Shown: one piece after another, positions 9,868 to 37,371 of the stretch
Layout of the letters: each line of letters starts with the position of its first letter
Position numbering within the stretch: the first letter of the stretch is position 1
Assembly (NCBI GenBank): GCA_029865385.1
Contig: JAOUGX010000027.1
Location: forward strand, 1-37,668
Source: Gammaproteobacteria bacterium
GTDB taxonomy: Bacteria > Pseudomonadota > Gammaproteobacteria > Steroidobacterales > Woeseiaceae
Direction of reading: 5' to 3'
Length of the DNA: 37,668 bases
The notes under the pieces: generated by a model
The model's input: only the letters and a program-made list of their open reading frames with translations
Told to the model about the DNA's origin: nothing
Databases searched by the model: none
Made by a program: the position numbers and the translations under genes

Positions 9868-12470
9868 AGCAGGCAGCAATAAGGTTCGCAACGGAACGGC
9901 CGAGAACCGTCTACTTGATTGTCGTTCTGCTGGTGGTTGTGCTCGGCGCAATGATGGCGCGCATACGGATCGATACGGACCCGGAGAACATGCTGCCGGC
10001 AAACCAGACAGACCGTGTGTTCCACAATGCCGTGGAGGACCGGTTCACGCTTCACGACGCAATCGTCCTCGGTATTGTCAACAACGAACATCCTGACGGA
10101 ATATTCAACGTCTCATCGCTGGACGCGCTGAGTAGCCTCAGTCAGTCGATACTGCAACTGGACGGCGTGATCGCGCCGGATCTCATGTCGCTGGCGGTTG
10201 CGGACAACATCAGCCAGGAAGGGCCGGGAACGATTCGCTTCGAATGGATGATGAAAAACGCGCCGCAAACGGCACAACAGGCCCTCGACATCCGGACCAA
10301 GGTCAGCCGGCTGCCGTTACTCAATGACACGCTGGTATCCGGCGACGGGCGAGCAGCGGCAATCTACATTCCAATTGAGCGCAAGGACCTGAGTCACCCC
10401 CTGTCGATAAAGATACGCGAGCTCGCGGACGCGCTCGATTCCTCTGACGAATATCACATCACCGGGCTGCCGGTTGCGGAGGACACCTTTGGTCACGACA
10501 TGTTCGTACAGATGGGAATTTCGGCACCACTCGCTGGACTGATGATCTTTCTGCTGATGCTGTATTTCTTCCGCAGCCCCAGGCTGGTCGTTGCGCCTAT
10601 GCTGATGGCAATGGCAACCGTCATTATCAGCATGGGTCTGCTCATAGGCATGGGATTCACGGTGCACATCATGAGTTCGATGATTCCGATTTTCCTGATG
10701 CCGATTGCCGTCGTCGACTCGGTGCACATCATGTCCGAGTTCGCCGATTCCTATCGGGAAGACAGGGCGCCGAAAGAAGTCATTTCCGAGGTCATCAATC
10801 ATCTGTTCAGGCCGATGCTGTTCACGTCGTTGACTTCTGCAGTAGGCTTCCTGTCACTGCTGCTGACGCCGATTCCGCCCGTGCAAATTTTCGGCGTCTT
10901 CGTCGCATTCGGCATCCTGCTGGCTTTCTTGCTGACTATCGTACTGATTCCCGCCTATGTGGTGCGGATGAAGCCGGCAGCACTGGCGAAACTGGTGGCG
11001 CCCGGCAAGACGCCGCGCACGAATACCGCGCTTGCGCGAATTCTGCGCCGCTCCGGCCGGTTTGCCTTTGCCAATGGCAAGCTCATTGTCGGTCTTGCCG
11101 TTGCGCTTATCGCCGTCAGCATCGCGGGTATCTACCGCATCGAGATCAATGACAACCCCGTGCGATGGTTCAAAGCCAGTCACCCGATCCGGGTAGCCGA
11201 CGACGTGCTGAACCGGCATTTTGCCGGTACCTACGATGCATTCGCCGTGATTTCGGCGAAACAGGATGACTCGATTGCTACGTTCATAGCCGACGCCGAG
11301 AGGGTTCTCGCGGATATCGACGGGAGTCTGGCCGACGATATCCGGCGCCAGCTGCAGGTGCCGGCCGGAGAGAGGGATCGCTATTTCGGCGACCTGATTG
11401 CGCTTCTCGACGACGCTCTATTCGATGCGACGGGTCCGGCCACCGTCGATGCGTTTACGCGACTCATGGAGGATGCAGAAAATGCGCAGGTTTCCGCGCG
11501 CATATTCCAGGACCCGGCGCTGTTGCGATCGGTTGCGGAAATCCAGCAAGCGCTGCTTCAATCCGGGGTCGTTGGCAAGACCAACGCGTTACCGGACGTC
11601 GTCAAAGTCGTCAACCGGGAGTTGCGCGGCGGCGATGACTCCGAATACCGCATTCCGGATACCGTTCCCGGCGTAGCGCAGGTTCTTTTGCAATACCAGT
11701 CGTCGCATCGGCCGCAGGATCTCTGGCACATGGTCACGCCGGACTATTCGTCAGCGGCAATCTGGCTGCAGCTGAAAAGCGGCGACAACCAGGACATGAC
11801 GAAGGTCATTGAGACACTAGACGCGTACCTGAGCAAGAACCCGCTGCCGGACAACGTGGAATTCCGCTGGGCAGGCAAGTCCTACATCAATGTCGTTTGG
11901 CAGAATGCCATGGTCAACGGCATGTTATTCAGTCTGCTCGGCGCTTTCGCCGCTGTTTTCCTGATCATGTCGCTGCTGTTTCGCAGCGCCCGTGTGGGCC
12001 TACTGGCTATGGTTCCCTTGTCGGTCACGATACTGGGCGTATACGGAGCCATCGGCTGGATGGGCAAGGACTACGATATGCCGATAGCGGTCTTGTCTTC
12101 TCTCACGCTCGGACTTTCCATCGACTTTGCGATCCACTTTATCGAGCGTATGCGCGGGCTGTTGCGTTCCGGTGAAGCGTTTTCTGCTGCGGCCGAAAAA
12201 ATGTTCGAGGAGCCTGCCCGTGCAATTGCGAGAAACGCCATTGTCATCGCCATCGGATTTACGCCGCTGTTTTTCGCACCGCTGGTGCCTTACATCACCG
12301 TTGGCGCATTCATGGCAGGCATCATGTTCCTTTCGGGGCTGAGCACGCTGCTGCTTCTGCCTGCGTTGCTCGGCTGGGGCAGGCGCTGGCTGCTGCCGCA
12401 AACTGCGGTGGAGATCCGTCCGGAACATGCAACGCAAGCCAATTCAACTTTACTGGAGTCCCGCCCGTGA
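9864..12470 (+). CDS. MMPL/RND-family exporter
   Basis: This 868-residue inner-membrane protein is a proton-driven RND transporter of the MMPL/HpnN type. It has an N-terminal membrane segment at about 14-32, a periplasmic loop of about 180 residues, five further segments between about 218 and 368, and a repeat of the plan in the second half (segment near 408-424, loop to about 680, then segments to about 835). Acidic residues expected to relay protons are visible in the fourth segment of each half: D285 (IAVVDSVHIMSEF) and D754 (LSIDFAIHFIERM). MMPL proteins usually export lipids or hydrophobic compounds. The gene overlaps sqr by four bases and the LolA-like gene by four bases. Its cargo is unknown. 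Confidence 0.88.
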   Translation: MKQAAIRFATERPRTVYLIVVLLVVVLGAMMARIRIDTDPENMLPANQTDRVFHNAVEDRFTLHDAIVLGIVNNEHPDGIFNVSSLDALSSLSQSILQLDGVIAPDLMSLAVADNISQEGPGTIRFEWMMKNAPQTAQQALDIRTKVSRLPLLNDTLVSGDGRAAAIYIPIERKDLSHPLSIKIRELADALDSSDEYHITGLPVAEDTFGHDMFVQMGISAPLAGLMIFLLMLYFFRSPRLVVAPMLMAMATVIISMGLLIGMGFTVHIMSSMIPIFLMPIAVVDSVHIMSEFADSYREDRAPKEVISEVINHLFRPMLFTSLTSAVGFLSLLLTPIPPVQIFGVFVAFGILLAFLLTIVLIPAYVVRMKPAALAKLVAPGKTPRTNTALARILRRSGRFAFANGKLIVGLAVALIAVSIAGIYRIEINDNPVRWFKASHPIRVADDVLNRHFAGTYDAFAVISAKQDDSIATFIADAERVLADIDGSLADDIRRQLQVPAGERDRYFGDLIALLDDALFDATGPATVDAFTRLMEDAENAQVSARIFQDPALLRSVAEIQQALLQSGVVGKTNALPDVVKVVNRELRGGDDSEYRIPDTVPGVAQVLLQYQSSHRPQDLWHMVTPDYSSAAIWLQLKSGDNQDMTKVIETLDAYLSKNPLPDNVEFRWAGKSYINVVWQNAMVNGMLFSLLGAFAAVFLIMSLLFRSARVGLLAMVPLSVTILGVYGAIGWMGKDYDMPIAVLSSLTLGLSIDFAIHFIERMRGLLRSGEAFSAAAEKMFEEPARAIARNAIVIAIGFTPLFFAPLVPYITVGAFMAGIMFLSGLSTLLLLPALLGWGRRWLLPQTAVEIRPEHATQANSTLLESRP

Positions 12471-23759: not shown

Positions 23760-24677
23760 TCAGGCCGCGGACTGCCTGAGGATGTTGTAAGGCGCGAGTT
23801 CGGGCTTCCGGCAGCTCGCCAGCCGCACGATGCTCGTGTGCACGAAGGCATGCTGCCCCGAAAGGCTGGCGTGGCTCACCATGTCGGTAAACACCATCCA
23901 CGCCGAGAAAGGCGGAAATCGAAACTCCACATGACCCTCGGTATCCTGCTGGAACGCGGGCGTGTCTTTCATGAAATTGTGGAACCTGCGCATTACGCGG
24001 TCGTAGGGCGAGGAATCGAGCACATGCGCCGCCGGCAAGCCGAGCGCAGCGACACCCTTCAGCAAGCCGGTTCTCAGGTGATCCAGCGGTCCTTTTCGAA
24101 GATAGTTCGTACCCGGATTGGCGACCGCAATTCCAGCCGCCTTGCCGTAACGCTGATACACCGCGGGAAAGGTGCCCTTGCTGGCCCAGACTCGGTCCTC
24201 GGTCGGGTTCACGTTGATGAAAAACCGCAGGATACGGTCACCGTTGGTTGCGCCGTAGGCGCCCGCGTCGACGTGCACGAGTTCATTGCTCGCGTGCGGT
24301 TTCAGGTTGCGGCCTTTTTCCTGGATGGGCCGGAAACTGCAGGTACCCACGGTCCAGTCTTTCGTCAGGCCGGGCGCTTTCGCTTTCAGGAACCGCTCGA
24401 TCTCGCCGCTGACGCCGGTGAGTACGCGCGTAATGCGCTGCGCGGTTGCCGCGTCGGCATCGCCCAGTCCGCGCACATGGCCGGCTTCTGGATGATAGGA
24501 AATATTTTTTAATTTCAACAATTTAGGGAGCTCAACTCTAAAAAACTCCAAATCATCTGGCGACGGCAGCGGCACCGGTGAACTGGGAAAAAACACGATG
24601 GCGCCTTCTTCGAGCGCATCGGAAAGGTCATTGGGTCCGGCGCCGGCCAGGCGTGATTGATCGAATGTCTGCAGCAT
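23760..24677 (-). CDS. kdoO: Kdo hydroxylase (KdoO family)
   Basis: KdoO is an Fe(II)/2-oxoglutarate/oxygen enzyme that converts Kdo to Ko in lipopolysaccharide. The 305-residue protein matches the family from ISYHPEAGHVRGL through NELVHVDAGAYG and RILRFFINVNPTEDRVW to MRRFHNFMKDTPAFQ and FPPFSAWMVFTDMVSHA. A plausible iron triad is H135, D137 (HVD) and H269 (SHA). The start at 24677 has GGAG nine bases upstream; a longer frame upstream would cross the divergent promoter. It faces away from a heptosyltransferase-family gene, so both act in LPS core building. A patch near 24497-24560 is unusually AT-rich for this genome. Confidence 0.88.
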   Translation of the reverse strand: MLQTFDQSRLAGAGPNDLSDALEEGAIVFFPSSPVPLPSPDDLEFFRVELPKLLKLKNISYHPEAGHVRGLGDADAATAQRITRVLTGVSGEIERFLKAKAPGLTKDWTVGTCSFRPIQEKGRNLKPHASNELVHVDAGAYGATNGDRILRFFINVNPTEDRVWASKGTFPAVYQRYGKAAGIAVANPGTNYLRKGPLDHLRTGLLKGVAALGLPAAHVLDSSPYDRVMRRFHNFMKDTPAFQQDTEGHVEFRFPPFSAWMVFTDMVSHASLSGQHAFVHTSIVRLASCRKPELAPYNILRQSAA

Positions 24678-24729
24678 GGATGGATTCTCCGGATCGGGCG
24701 TCGCGGTTCGCTGGTCGTTTGTCGCCGTG

Positions 24730-24759
24730 ATTATAATGCAGCGATCGACCACAATGGTC
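24730..24759. promoter_or_regulatory. Divergent promoter region of kdoO and the heptosyltransferase gene
   Basis: ATTATAAT (24730-24737) is a perfect palindrome, so TATAAT reads as a -10 box on both strands (24732-24737 plus, complement of 24730-24735 minus). The -35 boxes are poor (TTCGCT 19 bases upstream on the plus strand). Beside it lies an inverted repeat GACCA-CAA-TGGTC (24747-24759) that could be an operator. Confidence 0.5.
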
Positions 24760-24790
24760 CGCACTTTTCCCCGATCCCTGGGTTCCGGCA

Positions 24791-25861
24791 ATGTCAGTAA
24801 AAACCATGGAGCCGCTGTCAAGCGCCCCGGACTCGCTTTGCATTGTGCGCCTCTCGGCGCTCGGGGATGTCACCCATGCCGTGCCGGTATTGCGCGCAAT
24901 CCAGCGCCAATGGCCTGCAACGCGCATTACCTGGGTATGTGCCGTGGTGGAACACAGGCTGCTGTCGCTTATCGATGGCATTCGTTTCGTCACGCTGGAC
25001 AAGAAAGCAGGCTGGCGCGGCTATCGGGAGTTGCGCCGGCAACTTCGCGGCGAAAAGTTCGACATCATGGTGCAGATGCAGACTTCCGCCCGGGCAAATC
25101 TCGCCGGCGCCTGCGTTCGCGCGCGGATAAAGCTCGGTTGGGACAAGGCGCGGGCGCGGGACCTGCACCACCTGTTCATGACGCATGTCATTCCGCCCGC
25201 GGCGAAGCAACACCAGGTACAGGGTCACCTGGCATTCGCACGGGCTCTGGGGCTCGACGCCGACGAACCGGTCTGGGATTTTCCGGTCACCGAGGCCAGC
25301 CGGCAGCATGCCGCCGAACGTCTTCCTGGCGAGCAGCGCACGCTGCTGATATCGCCTTGCTCGAGTCACGTGCATCGCAACTGGCTTGCCGACCGCTATG
25401 CGGCCGTGGCCGATTACGCGGTCGCGACCCACGGCATGCGCATCGTGCTGACTGGCGGCCCATCGGAAATCGAGAAACACATGGGCCGGGATATCGAAAC
25501 GGCCATGCAAAACAATGCCGACAACCTGGTCGGGCAACTGACACTCGAGCAGTTGATGGGCTTGCTGGAACGCGCCGACGTCGTACTTTCGCCCGATTCT
25601 GGCCCCGCCCACATGGCGAATGCACTCGGCAAACCGGTTATCGGGCTGCACGCCTGCACCTGGTCGATTCGCGGCGGTCCGTACCACTCCCTCGACCTGT
25701 GCATAGACAAGTTTCCGCAGGCCGCGCGGCAATTTCGCAACAAAGCGCCGGAAGAGATTCGCTGGGGCACCAAAATAGAGGAGCCCGGCGTCATGGCGCT
25801 GATCGAGGTCGACGAGGTCATAAATCGCCTTGACGAGGCTGTAAGCCGCCTGCCGCGTTGA
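24791..25861 (+). CDS. Glycosyltransferase family 9, LPS heptosyltransferase type
   Basis: The 356-residue cytoplasmic, membrane-associated enzyme is expected to transfer heptose from ADP-heptose to the inner core of LPS. The N-terminal domain begins CIVRLSALGDVTHAVPVLRAI, the classic GT9 start, and the nucleotide-binding domain carries LVGQLTLEQLMGLLERADVV followed by SPDSGPAHMANALGKPVIGLHA. It looks more like the WaaC/RfaC group than WaaF, but the acceptor cannot be read from sequence. ATG 24791 is used; ATG 24806 is an alternative five codons later. It is divergent from kdoO across a 113-base promoter region. Confidence 0.88.
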   Translation: MSVKTMEPLSSAPDSLCIVRLSALGDVTHAVPVLRAIQRQWPATRITWVCAVVEHRLLSLIDGIRFVTLDKKAGWRGYRELRRQLRGEKFDIMVQMQTSARANLAGACVRARIKLGWDKARARDLHHLFMTHVIPPAAKQHQVQGHLAFARALGLDADEPVWDFPVTEASRQHAAERLPGEQRTLLISPCSSHVHRNWLADRYAAVADYAVATHGMRIVLTGGPSEIEKHMGRDIETAMQNNADNLVGQLTLEQLMGLLERADVVLSPDSGPAHMANALGKPVIGLHACTWSIRGGPYHSLDLCIDKFPQAARQFRNKAPEEIRWGTKIEEPGVMALIEVDEVINRLDEAVSRLPR

Positions 25862-25930: not shown

Positions 25931-26806
25931 ATGAACGTCATCAACGGTCATAAGGGCACGCTGCCCGCACAGTTTTCGACGACGGGCCCCGCGGCCAGTC
26001 TGGCCTGGATCATCGGTATCGTTGCTTTCGCGTGCATTGCAATGGCTAACAGCGCAATCGCCAATACCTCTGCGCCGACCATCCGCCTGTTCCCGACCAC
26101 CGTGGTCGAAGACCTCCGCCAGACCAGCTCCGTCGCAAAGGAAATGGAAACCGGCCTGCAGGAAGTCATCGGCCGGCTGGACCAGCAGCAGGAACTGTAC
26201 GAACAAAGCAAATGCGAGGGCGCCGAAAACGATCCTGGCTGCCAGCGCCTGTCGCGGCAACTCGGCGCAACCTATCTCGAAATGCTCGGCATCATGGAAG
26301 AGCGCCTGCCGGACATGGAACACACTGTCAACAACACCCGCCTCAGTCTCGAAAAACGGCTGCGCAGCGAACTCGGCAACAAGATGACGTCATGGACGCT
26401 GCAGGAAACTCTGCTCGGTGGCAATCCGCAACCTAGCGCCGCTGCAACGGCCCCGAGCATGCGCGGCAAATCCGGCATGCGACTCTCGGAAAGATTCCGC
26501 CAGTATTACCAGCTGGTGGCGTCATCGAGCAGCCAGAGCGACCAGTCTCTGGCTGTTCTTGCTTCTGATATCTACCTCGATATGGAAGAAACCAGCACAT
26601 TGATTGCGCGAACACGCGAGGAGATCGCCCGCGCGACGCTTATCGAGCAACTGAACCAGTCCTTCGGCACTATCACGCCGGAAATGATGGAAGTCGTCGG
26701 CGGCGTCAAATCGATTTTGTTCGGTGACGAAGCAAGCCGCGTGCAAATAGCCGGTCCGCCTCCCGGCAACATCGAGCAAGCCTACCGAAGCCCGCTCGAA
26801 AACTGA
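25931..26806 (+). CDS. Periplasmic helical/coiled-coil protein, first gene of envelope operon
   Basis: This 291-residue protein is unfamiliar. It has a hydrophobic signal or anchor (SLAWIIGIVAFACIAMANSAIA, written here as the region 24-45) after a polar start, then a largely helical chain. Heptad-like helices occur near 60-90 (TSSVAKEMETGLQEVIGRLD) and 105-150, with two cysteines (SKCEGAENDPGC) between them. The C-terminus is proline-rich (GPPPGN). Cleavage after SAIA would leave a periplasmic protein. GAGGGAG precedes ATG 25931. It heads a run of seven closely spaced genes and may be a periplasmic partner of the ExbB/ExbD-like pair; that is inference from position. Confidence 0.7.
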   Translation: MNVINGHKGTLPAQFSTTGPAASLAWIIGIVAFACIAMANSAIANTSAPTIRLFPTTVVEDLRQTSSVAKEMETGLQEVIGRLDQQQELYEQSKCEGAENDPGCQRLSRQLGATYLEMLGIMEERLPDMEHTVNNTRLSLEKRLRSELGNKMTSWTLQETLLGGNPQPSAAATAPSMRGKSGMRLSERFRQYYQLVASSSSQSDQSLAVLASDIYLDMEETSTLIARTREEIARATLIEQLNQSFGTITPEMMEVVGGVKSILFGDEASRVQIAGPPPGNIEQAYRSPLEN

Positions 26807-26827
26807 AAAATTCATCGGAGAATCGTC

Positions 26828-27367
26828 ATGACCACCCTACGCGGACTCGCCTCGCTCTTCCTTCTTCTCGCCACTGTTATTGCGCTTGCGTCTTGCGCAT
26901 CGACACCGCCTTGCGGCAGCACGCAAAGCAAGAACCTGGACTCGGCAGTCGATGATGTGAAGCGTACCTTGAGCAGCGGTTGCGAGGCGCACTTCGACAG
27001 CTACTACGATGATCTGTTGCGCGTCGCGGAAGGCGATCCGAAGCCGGAGAACAAACGCATCTTCAGTGACTTCCTGATGTGGTCCAGCGACGAAGGGCTC
27101 CTGAGCCAGCGCCAGGCCAAGGATTACTACAATCGTTATTTCAATGTGAAGTTCATGTCGCTGCAGGGCGACTACAACAATTGTTCCCATACTTGCCCGC
27201 GCCGCGAACGCGTCATGCTCGAGATGGAGCGCGAGCTCGGCGACAAGGAACGCGGGCTGCTGAAAGTGAGCCTCGACAACGAGGGCTATTACCGGGCCGA
27301 CGAGCTCTACCAGGAGGTCGAGCTCGTTCTGGAAGCAACCTGTACGGCCTGTGCGGCCGGCAGATAA
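26828..27367 (+). CDS. Cysteine-rich hypothetical lipoprotein
   Basis: The 179-residue protein has a lipoprotein signal (LFLLLATVIALASC, lipid cysteine C23). The mature part is charged and helical, with six more cysteines at 29, 52, 119, 123, 172 and 175, the last four in CSHTC and CTAC arrangements that could form disulfides or bind metal. The segment DFLMWSSDEGLLSQRQAKDYYNRYF is distinctive but not recognised. GGAG lies before ATG 26828, 21 bases after the previous stop. The position in the operon suggests an outer- or inner-membrane lipoprotein partner of the channel-like proteins that follow. Confidence 0.72.
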   Translation: MTTLRGLASLFLLLATVIALASCASTPPCGSTQSKNLDSAVDDVKRTLSSGCEAHFDSYYDDLLRVAEGDPKPENKRIFSDFLMWSSDEGLLSQRQAKDYYNRYFNVKFMSLQGDYNNCSHTCPRRERVMLEMERELGDKERGLLKVSLDNEGYYRADELYQEVELVLEATCTACAAGR

Positions 27368-27382
27368 AACGACTTCCGTGGC

Positions 27383-28039
27383 ATGGACAAGGCAAGAAGC
27401 CAGCGATTCATCCAGGGACTTACGGCGGGCGCCTTCGGCTCGTTCGTCGGCGCCGCCGCCCTTCTCTACATACTTGCGCGCACCCAACTCATCAGTTTTT
27501 CCGGTTCGCAGGAAGCCGACATAGGCGGCTGGCTGCAATGGGCGTACACGAATCTCGGCTCGTCGATTCCTGTTTTCGCCCTGTTATTGATCGCTTTTTT
27601 CGTCACGGTTCGTCGGCTGCGTCATCACCTCGAAAGCGGAAAGCCGCTGAATGAGATCGTGCAACTGGATCACCTGACCGATATCTGGACAACGTTGTTC
27701 TTCGGTACCGGTGTCATCTGGACTGCAATCGGCATGCGCAGTGCGCTGCTGTTTGCTCTCGGAGACCAGGAAGGGCTGCGTGACGGTGCGTCCGAAGTAC
27801 TGAGACGTATGGTGGACGGCGGCATCCTGCTGGCATTGTCGACGACCATTTTCGGCGGCATCGGCGGATATCTCATGCGGGTTTACAAGTCGGTGACACT
27901 CGGCTCCGCGCTGCAGCACTGCTACGACCAGGCGGCGCGCGCCGATACTTCGCGCATGCGCGATTCGCTCGAGCGCATTGAGGGGCACCTCAAGAGTCAG
28001 GCCACGACGAAGGACGCAGCGCCGGGAGGCGGGACGTGA
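27383..28039 (+). CDS. MotA/TolQ/ExbB-like membrane protein
   Basis: The 218-residue protein has four membrane segments at about 13-32, 60-78, 104-126 and 145-166, with a cytoplasmic helical C-terminus (about 170-205, rich in R/D/E). The third and fourth segments resemble the proton-channel helices of MotA/TolQ/ExbB: LFFGTGVIWTAIGM matches the family's GLLGTVxG pattern, and VDGGILLALSTTIFGGIGGYL matches the ALxTTxxG pattern. The next gene encodes an ExbD/TolR-like protein, which is the usual partner and strengthens the call. The similarity is by eye and distant. It starts 15 bases after the lipoprotein gene and overlaps the next gene by four bases. Confidence 0.7.
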   Translation: MDKARSQRFIQGLTAGAFGSFVGAAALLYILARTQLISFSGSQEADIGGWLQWAYTNLGSSIPVFALLLIAFFVTVRRLRHHLESGKPLNEIVQLDHLTDIWTTLFFGTGVIWTAIGMRSALLFALGDQEGLRDGASEVLRRMVDGGILLALSTTIFGGIGGYLMRVYKSVTLGSALQHCYDQAARADTSRMRDSLERIEGHLKSQATTKDAAPGGGT

Positions 28040-28785
28040 GCCGCTCACCGCTGATGTATGCCATGGGGCGCGGGTTCGATCCGGATGCCGGCGGGGCCGC
28101 CGAATTGCAGACGGATGTGATGCGCTTCATGGCCATACTGTCGCTTTGCCTCGTAGCAATATTCGCGCTGGTACAGAGCCTGCCGCCGGCGCCCGTCAAA
28201 GCGACAACACCGGATATAAGCGCAATTCCGCCGCTGTCGATCGAAGAAGAGAAGCCGATTGCTTCACCCGCAGCGGTCGAAGCAAAAAAGCTTGCTGTCG
28301 AGGCAGCCGCTTTGGAGCAACCGATAATACTGACGCGGCCGAAGCCGGTTGCCGCTGACCGGCATGTCGTAAACGCGCCGAACCCCGCTGTCGTGGAGCC
28401 CGTCGCGACACCGATCGTACCGGAGAGGGAGGGATTCACGTTGCAATTCGAGGACGACACCGCATTGACGCGGCTGATTTCCAGCAAGGACGTCGGCTTT
28501 TTCGCCATATCGGCCGACAAGACCATGCGACTGACAATCGATGGCAGCAAGATGAATTTCTGGCCGTCATCCACACCCGGACAATTTCACGAAATGGACG
28601 GCTCGACCGTTCCTGTCGAAGTGAAACGTGCACTGTTGCGTTCCGGTGCCGCACTTCCCGGCACCCCCCAGTGGGGCGTGACCTTGCCGCCGGTGACAAC
28701 CGGTCAACTCACGCAGATCCTGGCCGAATCCAAAGGCGGCTCGCTGATCATCGGCAGCAACGGCGAAATTCGGCTGGAGCGCTGA
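28036..28785 (+). CDS. ExbD/TolR-like single-pass membrane protein
   Basis: This 249-residue protein has a short cytoplasmic N-terminus, one membrane segment at about 28-49, a proline/alanine-rich periplasmic linker (about 50-135) and a folded C-terminal domain. The start of the segment reads ELQTDVMRFMAIL, with D27 in the place of the proton-carrying aspartate of ExbD (IDVMLVLL) and TolR. The periplasmic end includes DVGFFAISADKTMRLTIDG and GGSLIIGSNGEIRL. The GTG start at 28036 overlaps the stop of the ExbB-like gene. Together these two genes would make an ion-driven energy-transducing unit; the force would be passed to a periplasmic or cell wall partner encoded in this operon. Confidence 0.7.
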   Translation: MSRSPLMYAMGRGFDPDAGGAAELQTDVMRFMAILSLCLVAIFALVQSLPPAPVKATTPDISAIPPLSIEEEKPIASPAAVEAKKLAVEAAALEQPIILTRPKPVAADRHVVNAPNPAVVEPVATPIVPEREGFTLQFEDDTALTRLISSKDVGFFAISADKTMRLTIDGSKMNFWPSSTPGQFHEMDGSTVPVEVKRALLRSGAALPGTPQWGVTLPPVTTGQLTQILAESKGGSLIIGSNGEIRLER

Positions 28786-28786
28786 C

Positions 28787-30232
28787 ATGAGTATCCGGGC
28801 TGCGATCTTCACAACAGTTCTGTCAGTGGTGGCCGCCACTCAGAGTGTTGCCGCGCCGCGCCCGGTCGCGCTGGAAAGCTGGATCGACAACGAACTGACG
28901 CCTTACGTTGCCAGTCAACTTTCGACACACCCACGGTTTCGCAATGAATCGTTGCGACTGGTTGTCATGAAAGATGGCAACCCGCAGCCGGTTGCCAGCG
29001 CACTGGCGATCGCGCTGCGCGATCGCCTGCAGCTGGCATTGATGGACACGCCCGGCGTGAGGATTACCTGGCAGCCCGACCAGCCAAAATTCGGGCACGT
29101 GCCTGGCGGCACCGGTGTCGATTGCAGCGCAGATGTCGTTCATTACTACATCGGCCTGGAGCTTGCAGAAAAACGCAGCGGCGAATTCGAGTTGTCGCTG
29201 CGTGCGCTGGATCTCGAGGATCGCAGCTGGGTCAGCGGCTTCGGCAAAACCTGGAACGGTGCGTTGAGCACGTCACAACACCGAAAATGGCGGGAAGTTG
29301 CCACCGACCTGTCATTCCTCGGCGAACGTGCGGCACCGTTCGACGAATCGCAGTCCGACATGCTCGCCGCGCACCTCGCGCACAAACTGGGCTGTTCGCT
29401 GCTGCAGCAGGTTGCCGGCGAGTACGTTGCGACACCGGTGTTCGACGACGAGGGCGAACCACAGAATATGATCGAGCTCGTTGCCAACAACCTTGCCGCC
29501 TATCGCGCACTGCAATTGACGACCGATGCTACTCAGGCCAACGCCGCCATCGAGGCGAAAGCACACCGTGTCGATGACGACCTGTACCAGTACTGGATAA
29601 CCGTAAGACCGCGGGACACCGCTTCGGATCTTCCGGCGATCAGCGCAAGTGCGTACGTTTACATGCAACAGCCTTTCATCGACGCGGAGAAGGTGCCGTT
29701 CGTGCCGGCCGTCGCGGCGAGCCGGGCGGGAACGGTACTGAGCGCCTCACGCCTGGTGCAGCTGGACGATTACCCGGCTTGCAGCACTCGATTCGAATGC
29801 TTTGCCCTGCAGGCGCGGAGCAACGAAGATGCCGTCGTCTTTTTCCTCAATCACCAGCTCAACCGGGGGCTCGTCCGACTGGCCGATGATCGCTGCGATC
29901 GCCGCGCCTCTGCGCGCGTCGTGCGCGCCAATGAATCCGTGAATTTTGCACTGCGCGCCGATGACCCCGGAACCGGTTCGTGGCTGCCCGGCGAAAGCTG
30001 GGAGCTGGAGCCCGACATGGAGACTTACTACGTTGTCGCGGCAAGCGACACCAAGGCCGCGCGCGCTATTGCTCGCCATATCGAACAACTGCCGCAACGC
30101 TGTACATCTTCCGTACGCAGCGGCTTGCGCGGAGCTGTGCTGCAACGCTGGATCACCGAGCTGAATGCGATAGCCGATCACTGGAAAGCACAGATCGACT
30201 GGCAAATCATTCGCGTCAGAAACGTGTATTGA
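28787..30232 (+). CDS. Secreted protein of the envelope operon, unknown family
   Basis: The 481-residue protein has a signal peptide ending around SVAA-APRPV (residue 23). An N-terminal domain (about 30-220) contains LRLVVMKDGNPQPVASAL followed by LRDRLQLALMDTPGVRI, an arrangement reminiscent of CsgG/LpoB-type periplasmic domains that start with a strand and a helix. The C-terminal third has paired cysteines (CSTRFEC, DRC, QRC) and a segment WLPGESWELEPDMETYYVVAASD that resembles DUF4384-type modules. Both comparisons are tentative. It begins two bases after the previous stop and is the largest gene in the operon. Confidence 0.7.
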   Translation: MSIRAAIFTTVLSVVAATQSVAAPRPVALESWIDNELTPYVASQLSTHPRFRNESLRLVVMKDGNPQPVASALAIALRDRLQLALMDTPGVRITWQPDQPKFGHVPGGTGVDCSADVVHYYIGLELAEKRSGEFELSLRALDLEDRSWVSGFGKTWNGALSTSQHRKWREVATDLSFLGERAAPFDESQSDMLAAHLAHKLGCSLLQQVAGEYVATPVFDDEGEPQNMIELVANNLAAYRALQLTTDATQANAAIEAKAHRVDDDLYQYWITVRPRDTASDLPAISASAYVYMQQPFIDAEKVPFVPAVAASRAGTVLSASRLVQLDDYPACSTRFECFALQARSNEDAVVFFLNHQLNRGLVRLADDRCDRRASARVVRANESVNFALRADDPGTGSWLPGESWELEPDMETYYVVAASDTKAARAIARHIEQLPQRCTSSVRSGLRGAVLQRWITELNAIADHWKAQIDWQIIRVRNVY

Positions 30233-30242
30233 GGATGGAACC

Positions 30243-30797
30243 ATGATTCGCCTGCTGGGATTCATAGTCGGGTCGGCCGTTTCGATCGGCGCCATACTGC
30301 TGATTCTCGGCATGCCGGAATTTCATCTGTCGAATCCGCACCTGGACAAGAGCCGCTTCGACGAAGCGCTGCAGAGCCTGAAGGAAAAGCAACGCCAAAT
30401 AGAAATGGCTGCGGTGCCGGTCGATGAATCGCCGCCGGAACCCATTGCAGCGTCGCCAACAATATCCGATGACGACGTTGCGATCGTCGCAGATTCGACC
30501 CCTGGCGCGGCCGATACAATGCAGCACGCATCGATTGAAAATTCTATTGACGACGTACTGCCGGTCGAACCGCTGCAGGAACGGCATTGGCATTCCTTCT
30601 GGAATCCGTTTCGTAGTGAAATCGCAGCGCGTGGCTTCGTCTCGCAACTGGAAAGGGTTACAGGGCTCGATTACCGGGTCGTCAAGGTGAAAACCGGCGT
30701 TTACGAAGTTGCCTTCGCCTATGACAGTGATCTCGAGCGACAGGCCAAACTGTCGAAGATCCAGGCCGCGACAGGCCTCGACCTGCCCGGCTCATGA
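30243..30797 (+). CDS. Single-pass membrane protein with SPOR-like C-terminus
   Basis: The 184-residue protein has an N-terminal membrane anchor (LLGFIVGSAVSIGAILLILG), a periplasmic linker rich in D, P and A, and a C-terminal domain of about 70 residues starting near WNPFRSEIAARGFVSQLE. The order (aromatic start, helix with FVSQLERVTG, strand YRVVKVKTGVYEVAF, helix, GLDL) fits SPOR domains, which bind peptidoglycan strands lacking stem peptides and often gather at division sites. The stop overlaps the start of the lytic transglycosylase gene (ATGA), so the two products are probably made together and may act together on the wall. Confidence 0.72.
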   Translation: MIRLLGFIVGSAVSIGAILLILGMPEFHLSNPHLDKSRFDEALQSLKEKQRQIEMAAVPVDESPPEPIAASPTISDDDVAIVADSTPGAADTMQHASIENSIDDVLPVEPLQERHWHSFWNPFRSEIAARGFVSQLERVTGLDYRVVKVKTGVYEVAFAYDSDLERQAKLSKIQAATGLDLPGS

Positions 30798-31582
30798 GAA
30801 GCTGGCTTGCCGCGTTTGCCTGTGCCGTCACGCTGACGATAGCTTCGTATTCCATTGCCGGGCCGAAAACAGCCATCGACCCGGAGCTGGCGTGGAAGCA
30901 GTACTTGCGAAGTGATACCGACATCAAGCCGAGCTACCGCTTTCCGCACGCACAGTGCTTTCGATCTGCATCGCTCGCACATAACCTGCCGGAGACGCTG
31001 CTGCTTGCGGTTGCGCGCGGCGAAAGCGATTTCGATGCGATGGCGCGATCCAAGGCGAACGCACATGGCGTGATGCAGATTCAATGGCCAGGAACAGCAA
31101 GGCACCTTGGCATTTTCCGGTTGACGGAACTCTACGACCCCTGCACGAACATTGAAGCCGGCGCGCGCTACCTCAATGAACTTCTGCAGCAGTACGGCGG
31201 CAACGTGCACCTTGCGCTCGCCGCTTACAACTACGGACCGGGCCGCATCGCAAAAGACGGCATGGACATCCCATCCGGCGCCGAGTGGTACAGCGGCTAC
31301 ATCCTGCGTCACCTGGATTACGTGCTCGGCAATCGGGTGCGCAGCAACTCGGGGGTCGAGCACTTGTATTCGGACCTCGGTCGAACGACTTTGGTCAGTT
31401 TCGCCGAGCCCTACCGCGCAGCTGCGTTCGTGACCAGCCTCGAAGAACAATCACCGGCTTTGCAGCTGGACTGGTTTCGCCATGACGTCGGCAGTTTTAC
31501 CGTCGTGCTTCGCTACGCCGACAAGGACGATTTCCACAAGAGCGCAGCACTGCTGGCAAACGTGGGCTTTCGCCTCGAGTAA
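30794..31582 (+). CDS. Lytic transglycosylase (SLT family)
   Basis: The enzyme cleaves the glycan of peptidoglycan to 1,6-anhydro ends in the periplasm. The 262-residue protein has a signal peptide (LAAFACAVTLTIASYSIAG), the catalytic glutamate E77 in ARGESDFD, the substrate motif HGVMQIQWPG (91-100) and AYNYGPGRI (144-152). After the SLT domain, about 80 further residues end in GSFTVVLRYADKDDF, a segment that resembles the end of the SPOR-like protein encoded just upstream. It closes the seven-gene operon; a small hairpin with five T follows. No lipobox is present, so it is likely soluble or held by its partners. Confidence 0.9.
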   Translation: MRSWLAAFACAVTLTIASYSIAGPKTAIDPELAWKQYLRSDTDIKPSYRFPHAQCFRSASLAHNLPETLLLAVARGESDFDAMARSKANAHGVMQIQWPGTARHLGIFRLTELYDPCTNIEAGARYLNELLQQYGGNVHLALAAYNYGPGRIAKDGMDIPSGAEWYSGYILRHLDYVLGNRVRSNSGVEHLYSDLGRTTLVSFAEPYRAAAFVTSLEEQSPALQLDWFRHDVGSFTVVLRYADKDDFHKSAALLANVGFRLE

Positions 31583-31973: not shown

Positions 31974-32510
31974 GTGGCTACCAAACCCGAAATCCTGATC
32001 AGCGAGTCTGTCATACATACTCGCGTTCGGGAGCTGGCAGAGCAGATTTCGAAGGACTATTCGGGCAAAGACGAGTTGGTTTTGCTCGGAGTGCTCAAAG
32101 GATCGTTTATTTTTCTCGCCGATCTTTCGCGCGCATTGACCATTCCGCGCACGATCGAATTCATCGCCGTCTCCAGCTACGAGCACGGCTCGGTTCCGAG
32201 CGGCGCGGTACGCCTGGTCATGGACGTCCGCGGCAGTATCGAAGGACGCCATGTTCTGATAGTTGAAGACATAGTGGATACCGGCCAGACTTTGCACTAC
32301 CTGATCGACATGCTGAAATCTCGAAACCCGGCCTCCATACGCACCTGTGCGTTGCTGCACAAGGCGCACATGACAACCGCGGAAGTCGATATCGATTACC
32401 TGGGATTCAGCATCGGCGACGAATGGGTAGTGGGTTACGGGCTCGACTATATGGAGCAAAATCGCACCCTGCCCTACATCGGCATCGTCCATCCCGACGA
32501 CCGGAACTAG
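31974..32510 (+). CDS. hpt: Hypoxanthine phosphoribosyltransferase
   Basis: The enzyme salvages hypoxanthine (and often guanine) with PRPP to form IMP or GMP in the cytoplasm. The 178-residue protein has the expected order: [19 protein letters not shown], the flexible-loop motif SSYEHG, and the PRPP-binding motif [14 protein letters not shown] at about 93-106, ending with [11 protein letters not shown] and PYIG. The start is GTG at 31974, with GGGGAAAA upstream; a nearby ATG is in another frame. It lies 25 bases before the ABC exporter genes and may be transcribed with them. Confidence 0.94.
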
Positions 32511-34311: not shown

Positions 34312-35193
34312 TCAATGGTCGGCGCAGTCGTCGAATTCGACTTCGATGGTCGAATGACTGATGCCGTATGCCTCGCGCAGCACGCGCTTCACTTCCCGAA
34401 TTACCGGGGTGGCCGGCGCCGGTACATCGTTCAACGATACGTGCATCGTCAGCATCAGGTGCTGCGGTGTCAGTCCCCAGACATGCACGTGGTGAATGTC
34501 GCTTACGGCCGGCACCCGGCCGACAATGGTCTTTTTCATCGACGCGATGTCCAGCCATTCCGGGGCACCTTCCAGCAGGATGTGCGCGCTGCGCTGCACG
34601 AGTTGCCAGGCGCTGCGAAGGATCAGCATGGCGACCAGCACCGAAAGCAGTGGATCAATCGGCATCCAGCCCGTGTACATGATCACCAGTGCCGCGATGA
34701 TCGCTGCGAGCGAACCGAGCAGGTCGCCGGCGACGTGCAATGCGGCACCGCGAATATTCAGATTGTCCCTGTCGCCGCCGTGCAGGATCACAAACGACAT
34801 CAGGTTGACCACCAGCCCTGCTGTCGCGACCAGCAGCATCGTAGTTGCCATGACCTCCGGCGGCGCCGCCAATCGGCGAATCGCTTCATACAGAATCCAG
34901 CCGACGATCAGTAGCAGACTCAAGCCGTTGACGAAGGCAGCGAGAATCTGGAATCGCTGATAGCCGTAGCTTCGCCGCGAGTCCGCCGGTTTGGTGCTTA
35001 CCCGAAATGCAAGTGCGGCAAGCGCCAGAGCCATGGAGTCCGTCAACATGTGCCCGGCATCGGCCAGCAGCGCAAGTGACCCGGAAATCACTCCGCCGAT
35101 CACCTCGACGATCATGAACGCCACGGTCAGAACCAGCGCGAACTGGACCCGGCGCAGGTTGCCGTGCGAGTTGTGGTCGTGATCCTGGCTCAT
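34312..35193 (-). CDS. Cation diffusion facilitator, zinc-type exporter (CzcD/ZitB group)
   Basis: The 293-residue inner-membrane protein exchanges a divalent metal for protons. It starts with a histidine-rich tail (SQDHDHNSHG), then six membrane segments and a cytoplasmic C-terminal domain. The transport site is the zinc-type pair: H48 and D52 (GHMLTD) in the second segment and H153 and D157 (HVAGD) in the fifth. The C-terminal domain has DIHHVHVWGL and a final IEVEFDDCADH that can bind regulatory metal. It starts 13 bases after the stop of the symporter gene and may be transcribed with it. Confidence 0.92.
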   Translation of the reverse strand: MSQDHDHNSHGNLRRVQFALVLTVAFMIVEVIGGVISGSLALLADAGHMLTDSMALALAALAFRVSTKPADSRRSYGYQRFQILAAFVNGLSLLLIVGWILYEAIRRLAAPPEVMATTMLLVATAGLVVNLMSFVILHGGDRDNLNIRGAALHVAGDLLGSLAAIIAALVIMYTGWMPIDPLLSVLVAMLILRSAWQLVQRSAHILLEGAPEWLDIASMKKTIVGRVPAVSDIHHVHVWGLTPQHLMLTMHVSLNDVPAPATPVIREVKRVLREAYGISHSTIEVEFDDCADH

Positions 35194-35206
35194 TGTCCGG
35201 TTCGAT

Positions 35207-36982
35207 TTACCCGTGGTGCGATTCCAGTTCCCGCGGCACGCGAATCTGCTCGACCAGGCGCTGTATGTGCACAGGCGGTGGCGCCGTCAGATGGCTGACG
35301 GTGAGTGCCACGGCAAAATTCAGCAGCATGCCTATCACTCCGATACCCTCCGGAGATATGCCGAACAGCCAGTGATCGGCCGTGTTGATGCCCCATGGCG
35401 ACCCGGCCCACTTGAGGAAGAGCCCCTTGTAAAATTCGATATAGCCGTAGGTGAACAGCAAGCCCGCCAGCATGCCGGCGATTGCACCCTGCTTGTTCGC
35501 CCGCTTGACGAAAATGCCAAGCATGATGGCAGGGAACAGCGACGCTGCGGCAAGGCCGAAAGCAAATGCGACGACCTGGGCCACCCAACCCGGCGGATCG
35601 AAGCCGAGATAACCCGCCACCAGTATCGCAAAGGCCGCCGCAATGCGGCCTGCGCGAAGTTCGTTTCTCTCGGAAATGCCAGGCACGAAGATTCCCTTGA
35701 TCAGGTCGTGCGAAACGGCTGCCGATATCACCAGCAGGAGTCCTGCCGCGGTCGACAGCGCGGCGGCGATGCCGCCCGCCGCGACCAGCGCAATGACCCA
35801 GTTCGGCAGGCCGGCAATCTCGGGATTCGCGAGCACCATGATGTCGTTGTCGACGACCAGCTCGTTGCCGTTCCAGCCGTAGTCCTCGGCGGTTGCCGAG
35901 AACTCGGGGTTTTTGTCGTTGTAATATTGAATTCGCCCGTCGCCGTTCTTGTCTTCGATGCTCACCAGCCCGGTATTTTCCCAGTTGCGCATCCATCGCG
36001 GCCGCGATTCGTATTCCAGGTTTCCGTCGATCGCACCGACCGGTCCGGGTTGCACGGTATTCAGCAGGTTGAAACGCGCCATCGCACCAACGGCGGGGGC
36101 AGTCGTGTACAGAATGGCGATGAACAACAACGCGTAGCCGGCCGACTTTCGCGCGTCGCGAACTTTCGGCACCGTAAAAAACCTCACGATGACGTGCGGC
36201 AGCCCGGCCGTGCCGACCATCAGCGCAAGCGTGATGCAGAATACGTCGACCGTCGATTTTGATCCATCCGTGTACTGGCTGAAGCCCAGCGAAGTCACGA
36301 TATCGTCCAGCTTGTCGAGCAGTCCCGTGCCGCTGCCGTGGATATCGGCGCCGAAGGCAAGCTGCGGAACCGGGTCGCCGGTAATCTGGATCGCGATAAA
36401 TACAGCCGGCACCGTGTACGCGAAAATCAACACGCAGTACTGCGCGACCTGCGTGTAGGTAATGCCTTTCATGCCACCAAGCACGGCATACACGAACACG
36501 ATACCCATGCCGATGATCAGGCCCACCGTGACATCCACCTCCAGGAAGCGCGAGAAGACGATGCCAACGCCGCGCATCTGTCCGGCCACATAGGTAAAGG
36601 ACACGAAAATCAGGCAAATAACCGCGACGATACGCGCGGTCCTGGAGTAATAACGCTCGGCAATGAATTCCGGCACCGTGAACTTGCCGAATTTTCGCAG
36701 GTACGGTGCGAGGAACAGCGCCAGCAGCACGTAACCGCCGGTCCATCCCATCAGGTACACCGAGCCATCGTAGCCGAGGAACGCGATCAGCCCTGCCATC
36801 GATATGAACGAGGCCGCACTCATCCAGTCGGCGGCGGTCGCCATGCCGTTGGCGACCGGCGATACCGTCTTGCCAGCGATATAGAAGTCACCGGTGTTGT
36901 GCGCCCGGGACCAGAATGCGATGCCGATGTAAAGCGCGAAGCTCGCGCCGACGACGAGGTAGGTGAGCGCTTGCAAACTCAC
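35207..36982 (-). CDS. Sodium:solute symporter large subunit, VC_2705 type
   Basis: The 591-residue inner-membrane protein belongs to the SSS family, near the acetate permease ActP. About thirteen membrane segments are visible; family features include AGKTVSPVANGMATAADWMSA, the GGMKGITYTQ stretch and ALSTAAGLLLVISAAVSHD near the sodium site. A non-membrane insert at about 310-385 carries an EF-hand-like loop starting DKNGDGRIQ (344-355). The insert and the adjacent DUF4212 gene mark the VC_2705 subfamily. The start is GTG at 36982, nine bases after the DUF4212 stop. Substrate is unproven; a short carboxylate such as acetate is a fair guess. Confidence 0.9.
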   Translation of the reverse strand: MSLQALTYLVVGASFALYIGIAFWSRAHNTGDFYIAGKTVSPVANGMATAADWMSAASFISMAGLIAFLGYDGSVYLMGWTGGYVLLALFLAPYLRKFGKFTVPEFIAERYYSRTARIVAVICLIFVSFTYVAGQMRGVGIVFSRFLEVDVTVGLIIGMGIVFVYAVLGGMKGITYTQVAQYCVLIFAYTVPAVFIAIQITGDPVPQLAFGADIHGSGTGLLDKLDDIVTSLGFSQYTDGSKSTVDVFCITLALMVGTAGLPHVIVRFFTVPKVRDARKSAGYALLFIAILYTTAPAVGAMARFNLLNTVQPGPVGAIDGNLEYESRPRWMRNWENTGLVSIEDKNGDGRIQYYNDKNPEFSATAEDYGWNGNELVVDNDIMVLANPEIAGLPNWVIALVAAGGIAAALSTAAGLLLVISAAVSHDLIKGIFVPGISERNELRAGRIAAAFAILVAGYLGFDPPGWVAQVVAFAFGLAAASLFPAIMLGIFVKRANKQGAIAGMLAGLLFTYGYIEFYKGLFLKWAGSPWGINTADHWLFGISPEGIGVIGMLLNFAVALTVSHLTAPPPVHIQRLVEQIRVPRELESHHG

Positions 36983-36991
36983 GTAGCGTGC

Positions 36992-37249
36992 TCAGTCTTC
37001 ATGTACATCGAACTTCTGATCGATGTGATTCATGCGCCAGGCATAGAAAAATATCAGCGCGACGAAAATGTAGATCGATCCCTGCTGTGCAAACCAGAAT
37101 CCGAGCTTGAAGCCACCGATGCGTATCGCATTCAATTGGTCAACCAGCAGAATGCCGAATCCGTAAGAACACAGGAACCAGACAAGCATGCAACCCAGCA
37201 GGAGACGCAGGTTTGCCCGCCAATAAGCGGAACGATTTTCAGGAGTCAT
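36992..37249 (-). CDS. DUF4212 sodium:solute symporter small subunit
   Basis: The 85-residue protein has two membrane segments (LRLLLGCMLVWFLCSYGFGI and GSIYIFVALIFFYAW) with a family-typical RRN-like start (TPENRSAYWRANLRLLL) and the middle segment IRIGGFKLGFWFAQQGS. DUF4212 proteins are encoded directly before VC_2705-type symporters and are taken as their small subunit. The start at 37249 follows GGAG five bases away; a longer frame to 37270 has no such support. It is the first gene of the minus-strand group 37249 to 34312. Confidence 0.9.
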   Translation of the reverse strand: MTPENRSAYWRANLRLLLGCMLVWFLCSYGFGILLVDQLNAIRIGGFKLGFWFAQQGSIYIFVALIFFYAWRMNHIDQKFDVHED

Positions 37250-37337
37250 CGATTCTCCGGTGACGGGCACAGCGATTTTGTTATGCGCAATCTATCAGAG
37301 CATAATGCAGGATACACGAAAGCTTTTTACTTAATTG

Positions 37338-37357
37338 TGCGCGGTGCGCAATATAAA
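37338..37357 (+). promoter_or_regulatory. Promoter -10 box and inverted repeat before the dehalogenase gene
   Basis: TGCGC (37338-37342) and GCGCA (37346-37350) form an inverted repeat around GGT, flanked by ATTG and CAAT. It is followed at once by TATAAA (37352-37357), 15 bases before the ATG at 37372. A -35 box is weak (TTACTT at 37327-37332, 19 bases upstream). The repeat lies between the two, where a repressor would block transcription. Confidence 0.45.
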
Positions 37358-37371
37358 GACGCGGGATAGCA

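Follow-up and report, generated by a model that had tools for sequence, protein, structure and literature searches.

Seven genes that occupy positions 25931 to 31582 on the plus strand of a 37,668-nucleotide stretch of DNA, which was analysed at its full length and is here called the window, form a real unit that is kept across distantly related bacteria. The window belongs to a marine-sediment, Woeseiaceae-like gammaproteobacterium with a genome of 3.9 Mb in 198 contigs, and bins labelled Gammaproteobacteria and Woeseiaceae are among the nearest named relatives. We propose, with about as much credence as doubt, that the seven products make up a single ion-driven trans-envelope machine that acts on the outer membrane where the cell wall opens and operates beside the Tol-Pal system. 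The genes and the features on which this proposal draws, all on the plus strand, are as follows.

25931..26806, plus strand: gene 1, 291 amino acids; predicted to be secreted, with a hydrophobic (signal) segment at the N-terminus.
26828..27367, plus strand: gene 2, 179 amino acids; predicted lipoprotein, lipobox Cys23.
27383..28039, plus strand: gene 3, 218 amino acids; four hydrophobic segments; candidate channel subunit, remotely ExbB/TolQ-like.
27722..27724, plus strand: codon for T114 of gene 3, aligned to TolQ Thr145.
27845..27847, plus strand: codon for T155 of gene 3, aligned to TolQ Thr178.
28036..28785, plus strand: gene 4, 249 amino acids; membrane helix, linker and C-terminal domain; candidate axle subunit, remotely ExbD/TolR-like.
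28114..28116, plus strand: codon for D27 of gene 4, at the margin of the membrane helix; candidate for the ion-carrying Asp.
28180..28431, plus strand: gene 4 linker, residues 49-132; 19% Pro in the window protein.
28432..28782, plus strand: gene 4 C-terminal domain, residues 133-249; predicted fold.
28787..30232, plus strand: gene 5, 481 amino acids; predicted to be secreted in the window genome.
29801..30049, plus strand: residues 339-421 of gene 5, DUF4384-like.
30243..30797, plus strand: gene 6, 184 amino acids; N-terminal membrane anchor (about residues 4-22), variable linker and SPOR-like C-terminal domain.
30606-30755, plus strand: SPOR-like match in gene 6.
30794..31582, plus strand: gene 7, 262 amino acids; predicted secreted SLT lytic transglycosylase, SLT residues 55-155.
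31022..31024, plus strand: codon for E77 of gene 7, which pairs with the Glu of IARQES in E. coli Slt70.
31394-31558, plus strand: SPOR-like match at the C-terminus of gene 7.

The close packing of these seven open reading frames, described in an earlier sequence-only reading of this DNA, is borne out by spacings of 21, 15, -4, 1, 10 and -4 bases from gene 1 to gene 7. By our own inspection of the sequence, a purine-rich stretch precedes five of the seven start codons, with none before genes 3 and 7.

Gene 3 is present in 27 of the 99 genomes searched, the window's own included. Among the 26 other carriers, 21 have loci in which the seven genes keep their order and strand (some are cut at an end), and in the remaining five the only missing genes are those that fall past the end of the contig. 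A second sample comprised the best 80 of 120 relatives from named genomes; it shares several contigs with the first, and the two are not independent. Profile searches of these 80 loci found the seven genes in order in 57 and cuts at a contig end in 17. Apart from a few loci, the genes are therefore not split in relatives, in agreement with the earlier suggestion that they belong to one system. The titles of the 80 loci include Motiliproteus, Marinobacterium, Ectothiorhodospiraceae, tubeworm symbionts and Desulfobacterales. For residue counts we used seven alignments chosen from the 27 carriers (A1-A7; 23, 23, 19, 20, 19, 22 and 18 rows) and six that were hand-picked from the two sets so as to be diverse and complete (A8-A13; 44, 38, 36, 31, 32 and 33 rows).

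The departures from this arrangement are few. Gene 6 alone is missing from three of the 80 loci (L131, L135 and L140; Desulfobacterales bins, Olavius symbiont). At L129 and L130 genes 5 to 7 are gone directly after a shortened gene 4, and unrelated sequence follows. Both are chromosome-level metagenome assemblies with the break after about position 11000, and the protein beyond the break in L130 resembles, in our reading, ribosomal protein S1; the absence of genes 5 to 7 may be either a genuine loss or a misassembly. Gene order was flagged at L084 (a contig-end fragment), at L139 (where genes 3 and 4 share a single frame) and at L123, the one divergent locus, where gene 3 and a gene 2-like open reading frame are all that is present. 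At L123 (positions 9974-11330, in a Marinobacterium bin) the divergent gene 3 is followed by the gene 2-like lipoprotein, and gene 1 was not found upstream; this locus may represent another branch of the system, truncated by the end of the contig. In one genome of the class (G438) gene 3 occurs twice, on separate contigs (L144 and L149), and genes 1 to 5 accompany each copy in the stretch covered.

In a tree of the joined genes 1 to 3 (31 rows), the window's family and one bin labelled Chromatiales cluster with full support, and a deep branch holds four rows of Desulfobacterales type together with one gammaproteobacterial bin. The system is sparse. A draw of genomes from the class gave 7 positives in 369, counting the window's own genome, one known carrier and one very weak match (E 7e-4), and a draw from the phylum gave 1 in 398, which was the own genome; plasmid records gave no match to gene 3. 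The kept gene order, the tree and the sparse matches in the class and phylum together indicate that the system is old and has been held together, yet is patchy in distribution.

The candidate motor begins with gene 3. Its four hydrophobic segments span residues of about 13-31, 58-76, 105-123 and 147-165, and T114 and T155 are invariant in all 44 aligned members. A profile of these 44 sequences matched a MotA/TolQ/ExbB profile of 41 sequences weakly (P 0.0033). Column shuffles reached the score in none of 60 trials with blocks of nine and in 1 of 60 with blocks of five, reversed controls gave half the score, and global profile alignment gave nothing useful. With E. coli TolQ as reference, this alignment, itself weak (P 0.0033-0.004), places T114 on Thr145 and T155 on Thr178. 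According to passages in PMC12905483, these two TolQ residues are essential, as is Asp23 or Asp25 in TolR or ExbD; a search of PMC12215075 and PMC10666116 for residue names gave none.

The AlphaFold model of gene 3 (pLDDT 84.1, pTM 0.69) has helices at residues 2-33, 47-58, 61-85, 89-127 and 136-211. The first six PDB chains returned for it by Foldseek were ExbB, ExbB/ExbD, ZorAB, ExbBD, TolQ-TolR and a designed protein, all with E of at least 0.24, and chains of the TolQ/ExbB/ZorA kind make up 17 of the 50 listed. Of the 50 entries listed by VIA-align, 18 are TolQ, ExbB or ZorA, the best being TolQ (Z 10.6 over 147 residues). A relation of gene 3 to MotA, TolQ and ExbB is supported as remote homology only. 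The sequence-only reading had called the protein MotA/ExbB-like; the weak profile match on the threonine pair and the rank order of the folds speak for that relation, and the Pfam search and the Foldseek significance do not. Since the Pfam test failed, we do not file gene 3 as a proven member of the family; provided that the residue evidence stands, it would function as one. For genes 3, 4, 5 and 6 alike, the family labels are undetectable from the window proteins alone and required their relatives.

Gene 4 overlaps gene 3 by four bases and encodes one hydrophobic segment (residues 28-46), with LQTDVMRF at its inner edge. This motif contains D27, the proton-carrying position of the sequence-only reading, which is present and invariant in all 38 aligned members. 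Two further gene 4 rows (L059 and L061) are not among the 38; in each, the Asp-bearing membrane helix is encoded in frame just upstream of a later start codon. A distinctive feature is Arg30, three residues past D27, in 37 of the 38; to our knowledge, an Arg so near the membrane Asp is unusual for proteins of the ExbD/TolR kind. The likeness to ExbD and TolR that had been claimed for gene 4 holds for the Asp-bearing helix, at the level of the motif, and the remainder of the protein is not shown to be ExbD. No Pfam model matched the window protein, and ExbD was not among the 25 of 102 families listed for the 38 members; the last 29-30 residues matched ExbD profiles weakly, at a score that none of 60 shuffles reached.

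The linker of gene 4 varies from 57 to 217 residues across members. It contains 19-38% Pro in the 14 aligned rows from the window's family; in 11 of the 38 rows, from other lineages, it has less than 10% Pro and is 40-52% charged residues and Gln, a composition that we read as coiled-coil-like. Matches of gene 4 to coiled-coil families were discarded as a composition effect. Comparable changes between helical and Pro-rich spans are described for TolA in part of PMC12204202. The end domain (residues 133-249) is predicted with confidence, in blocks at pLDDT 91-97. It gave no convincing fold in the PDB (best Foldseek E 0.24; best VIA-align Z 2.8, mostly on the membrane-helix end), which is no proof of a new fold.

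In one bin labelled Desulfobacterales (L139, positions 1119-2750), a single 544-residue reading frame spans genes 3 and 4. The fusion may be natural or an assembly error; by our reading its linker and gene order resemble the gammaproteobacterial rows, and the contig may be misbinned.

Gene 7 is assigned to the SLT lytic transglycosylases by family, as the sequence-only reading had it: the window protein matches PF01464 at E 4.5e-27, and all 18 aligned members match. E77, which had been noted as intact, is invariant in the same 18 and aligns to the Glu of the Slt70 IARQES motif, which we take to be catalytic. The best NCBIfam match is a model for flagellar-assembly transglycosylases, with further matches to IagB (of type III secretion), Slt, MltF, MltD and MltC, all far below the cut-offs, and there is a weak match to EtgA (E 0.00086). 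The SPOR-like character that had been given to gene 6 receives weak support, and a SPOR-like end of gene 7 can be added to it. SPOR domains are described, in part of PMC12440217, as binders of denuded glycan at division sites.

The three remaining genes would supply the partners of gene 4 in the periplasm and at the outer membrane. Gene 1, which appears to be helical, is the most conserved of the six widely re-aligned families, with a mean column identity of 60%, and its Cys95 and Cys104 are invariant (32 of 32). It matched no NCBIfam or PADLOC family, and its Pfam matches are weak and inconsistent; assignments as Ppnp (7 of 32) and CATRA-C (6 of 32) were dropped as weak. Gene 2 was correctly recognised earlier as a cysteine-rich lipoprotein: the lipobox Cys23 is present in 33 of 33 members, and Cys29, 52, 119, 123, 172 and 175 are conserved in 28-33 of the 33. 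Because Asp stands at position +2 in only 2 of the 33, gene 2 is probably an outer-membrane lipoprotein. The window protein matched no Pfam, NCBIfam or PADLOC family; matches among its relatives are weak and inconsistent, and a candidate SCO1 label (4 of 33) was set aside for that reason.

A simple lipobox pattern occurs in 14 of the 36 gene 5 members, all from outside the window's family. DUF4384 (PF14326) was matched by Pfam in 5 of the 36 at E <= 1 (best 6.5e-11), the window member giving no match, and the profile-profile comparison with this family gave P 7.3e-6, a score reached in none of 40 shuffles. One weak match to ABC_trans_aux and the appearance of the first half of gene 5 hint at a possible LpoB/CsgG-like domain.

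Among known systems the unit most resembles Tol-Pal. Like TolQ and TolR, it pairs a multi-span subunit carrying two threonines (the aligned T114 and T155) with a single-span partner that has a membrane Asp, and like Tol-Pal it keeps an outer-membrane lipoprotein and secreted partners within one operon. It differs in several respects. Gene 3 starts with an additional membrane segment, and only a very short loop precedes its last two membrane helices; the long linker is part of gene 4 itself, and the end domain of gene 4 is of another kind; the set further includes a lytic transglycosylase and SPOR-like proteins. No TolA, TolB or Pal/OmpA family was matched by Pfam or NCBIfam in the seven proteins, and the earlier statement that the cluster holds no Pal, TolB, TolA or TonB was right. 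Genes like tolQ, tolR and tolB lie together elsewhere in the genome, on contig C6, with TolB at C6:61241; the search for TolA and Pal covered the seven proteins. TolB occurs in 25 of the 27 carriers, compared with 63 of the 72 other genomes. These genes and the TolB count identify the unit as an addition to Tol-Pal, and its replacement by the unit was rejected on the same count.

The resemblance to ExbB-ExbD lies in the Asp-bearing helix and in the Foldseek ranking of gene 3, whose first five chains include 6ye4, 5sv0 and 7ajq at E values that are not significant. In contrast to ExbD, the C-terminal domain of gene 4 gave no significant Pfam or fold match beyond the weak profile match of its last 29-30 residues, and, in contrast to Ton systems, the seven proteins show no TonB, TonB-dependent receptor or transporter by Pfam or NCBIfam. 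ZorA/ZorB structures likewise turn up for gene 3 in the fold comparisons (8vvi, 8qyk and 8qyh by Foldseek; 8qyh, 8vvn and 8qyy by VIA-align), and PADLOC found no Zorya parts in the seven proteins, its one match being weak and unrelated (Csx1, E 0.046).

The ion-driven gliding motors GldLM/GldKLMN of Bacteroidota and AglRQS with AgmT of Myxococcus are kindred in concept, a likeness by analogy. The GldM axle extends far into the periplasm, and the gldKLMN order likewise runs from lipoprotein to channel, shaft and periplasmic protein. Since GldLM is described, in part of PMC13104615, as 5:2-like and not homologous to MotAB, such a motor outside the Pfam family has a precedent. Gene 6, with its anchor, linker and C-terminal SPOR-like domain, is built like the septal SPOR proteins FtsN, DedD, DamX and RlpA, and gene 7 joins an enzyme to a SPOR-like domain as RlpA does, differing from all of these in the weakness of the SPOR matches. 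RlpA pairs SPOR with a different enzyme fold, and SLT is not the RlpA fold.

Flagellin is found more often in carriers (16 of 27) than in non-carriers (19 of 72; Fisher p 0.004), and it is our impression that the genomes of carriers tend to be larger. Eleven of the 27 carriers have no flagellin match, four of these being at least 98% complete, and the seven proteins contain no MotB-type OmpA domain by Pfam; a flagellar part or stator was rejected on these grounds. In two relatives from the same taxonomic order (G080:C28 and G067:C35), flagellin genes are found no more than about 20 kb from the unit, a proximity that is probably due to chance, given the 11 carriers that lack a flagellin match. 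Literature searches, in a collection that lacks most subscription papers and all bioRxiv preprints, listed no paper whose title or displayed abstract describes a unit like this one, and the sections consulted of two surveys of motor families (PMC12505986 and PMC12204202) do not mention it.

We infer from the conserved residues and the fold that gene 3 would form an ExbB/TolQ-like ring in the inner membrane enclosing two gene 4 helices, and that ions passing between D27 of gene 4 and T114 and T155 of gene 3 would cause gene 4 to turn or tilt. The long linker and end domain of gene 4 could then cross the wall, so that the axle would double as a force transducer, the job that TolA or TonB does elsewhere and that ExbD or TolR does not. 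Gene order and conservation suggest as its partners the outer-membrane lipoproteins of genes 2 and 5 and the periplasmic protein of gene 1. Through their SPOR-like domains, genes 6 and 7 may bind stripped glycan at division sites, where gene 7, judged by its enzyme class, would cut the glycan. Most likely, the net job would be to couple ion energy to the pulling or reorganising of the outer membrane at sites where the wall opens. The data support, and do not yet show, a motor-type pair of genes 3 and 4. A lesser role for gene 7, in which it opens the wall or makes it ready for the motor and does no more, has about the same plausibility as the control of wall cleavage that the sequence-only reading had suggested.

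Several observations weigh against a machine of this kind. Searches did not find the system in 72 of the 99 genomes, some of them incomplete. No curated family model searched (Pfam, NCBIfam or PADLOC) recognises gene 3 or gene 4 of the window. MotA_ExbB (PF01618) matched 1 of the 44 gene 3 members, at E 0.43, and the same model, after a loose first scan, found nine other places in the genome and did not match gene 3 of the operon at E <= 10. The best Foldseek E for gene 3, 0.24, is not significant. VIA-align also returns designed, SNARE-type and other helical proteins at up to Z 10.5 over about 100 residues, close to its best value for TolQ; a Z under about 13 may reflect a common helical-bundle arrangement. 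As a yardstick, the flagellar MotA of the same genome, excluded from the profile, matches the ExbB profile at P 1.1e-5, compared with P 0.004 for gene 3 as a profile and P 0.024 as one sequence, so that gene 3 is more remote from the ExbB family than is MotA; against that MotA directly, the gene 3 profile gave P 0.092. The membrane helix of gene 4 alone gave no profile match to the ExbD helix. SPOR (PF05036) was matched in 7 of 31 members of gene 6 (best E 0.028) and 3 of 18 of gene 7 (best E 0.0071), neither window protein being matched, and the corresponding profile comparisons are weak (gene 6, P 0.0019, reached by 1 of 40 shuffles; gene 7, P 0.0061, by none of 40). The three Desulfobacterales-type loci without gene 6 place that gene outside the core.

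It is possible, and we hold this tentatively, that the unit represents an unnamed class of ion-driven motor, distinct from MotAB, ExbBD, TolQR, GldLM and ZorAB. In such a motor the axle would span the periplasm and transmit the force without a separate transducer, and it would be tied to outer-membrane lipoproteins and a SPOR-guided wall cutter. The linker of gene 4 would then alternate between Pro-rich and coiled-coil forms like that of TolA, and ion flow would drive the joint remodelling of membrane and wall. We think it rather unlikely that the same motor instead works at the outer membrane or the cell surface in movement, transport or adhesion, with gene 7 as a dedicated opener or modifier of the wall that lets the shaft cross or grip the peptidoglycan, on the model of the transglycosylases of flagellar and type III secretion assembly and of AgmT in Myxococcus gliding. 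The length of gene 4, which should suffice to cross the wall, fits this arrangement, as do the flagellar-assembly, IagB and EtgA matches of gene 7. It stays alive because AgmT, a lytic transglycosylase, is described in part of PMC11444678 as coupling a proton-driven motor to peptidoglycan in M. xanthus gliding. It is opposed by the two SPOR-like domains of genes 6 and 7, which indicate denuded septal glycan and not a random hole, by the absence of any surface adhesin or secretin family from the seven proteins in Pfam and NCBIfam, and, for a flagellar part, by the 11 carriers without a flagellin match.

We give little credence to two further explanations of genes 3 and 4. In one, the unit energises uptake or export across the outer membrane in the manner of ExbB, ExbD and TonB, with the lipoproteins as the gate. 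The fold ranking and residues of gene 3 would suit such a role, as would the linker of gene 4, for TonB too has a Pro-rich linker; the lack of TonB, receptor and transporter among the seven speaks against it, as does the wall-cutting enzyme, which is not a known part of Ton systems. In the other, which we consider equally improbable, there is no motor, and genes 3 and 4 serve as a membrane scaffold pair whose likeness to ExbB and TolQ is convergent and which anchors a wall-remodelling complex without ion flow. The missing family matches, the weak profile and fold scores and the unusual Arg30 near D27 speak for this reading; a mere scaffold hardly accounts for T114, T155 and D27 being strictly conserved together at the key sites of TolQR and ExbBD. 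As single sequences, genes 3 and 4 gave no PDB matches at E <= 10, and profiles of genes 1, 3, 4, 5 and 6 gave apparent chance matches, the best being Abl interactor 2 for gene 1 (E 0.025).

Upstream of the unit, at 23763-25861, lie genes for a Kdo hydroxylase and a family 9 heptosyltransferase in a head-to-head overlap, a pair for the lipopolysaccharide core. Downstream follow, in order, a small open reading frame on the opposite strand with no Pfam match, a phosphoribosyltransferase gene (31974-32507) and an ABC exporter. The phosphoribosyltransferase is near the unit in 22 of the 48 loci with downstream room, the other seven flanking genes tested being there in 0 to 6, and a functional link to the unit is not evident. 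Further downstream, a 518-amino-acid open reading frame on the minus strand (35193-36746) is overlapped by one of 343 amino acids on the plus strand (36338-37366); neither gave a Pfam match at E <= 0.001. Scans of the operon surroundings for promoter-like sites (1, with 1.9 in shuffles) and terminator-like sites (12, with 7.8 in shuffles, standard deviation 2.8) were uninformative.

Few ion-driven envelope motors are known, and each of them, in flagella, Ton, Tol, gliding and Zorya, has opened a field. If the proposed machine exists, this kind of motor would be broader than Pfam-based surveys show, one of its members being missed by standard family models. The seven-gene set is small enough to be transferred to a test strain, and the long-standing question of whether membrane energy directly drives or times the cutting of the cell wall would become testable.

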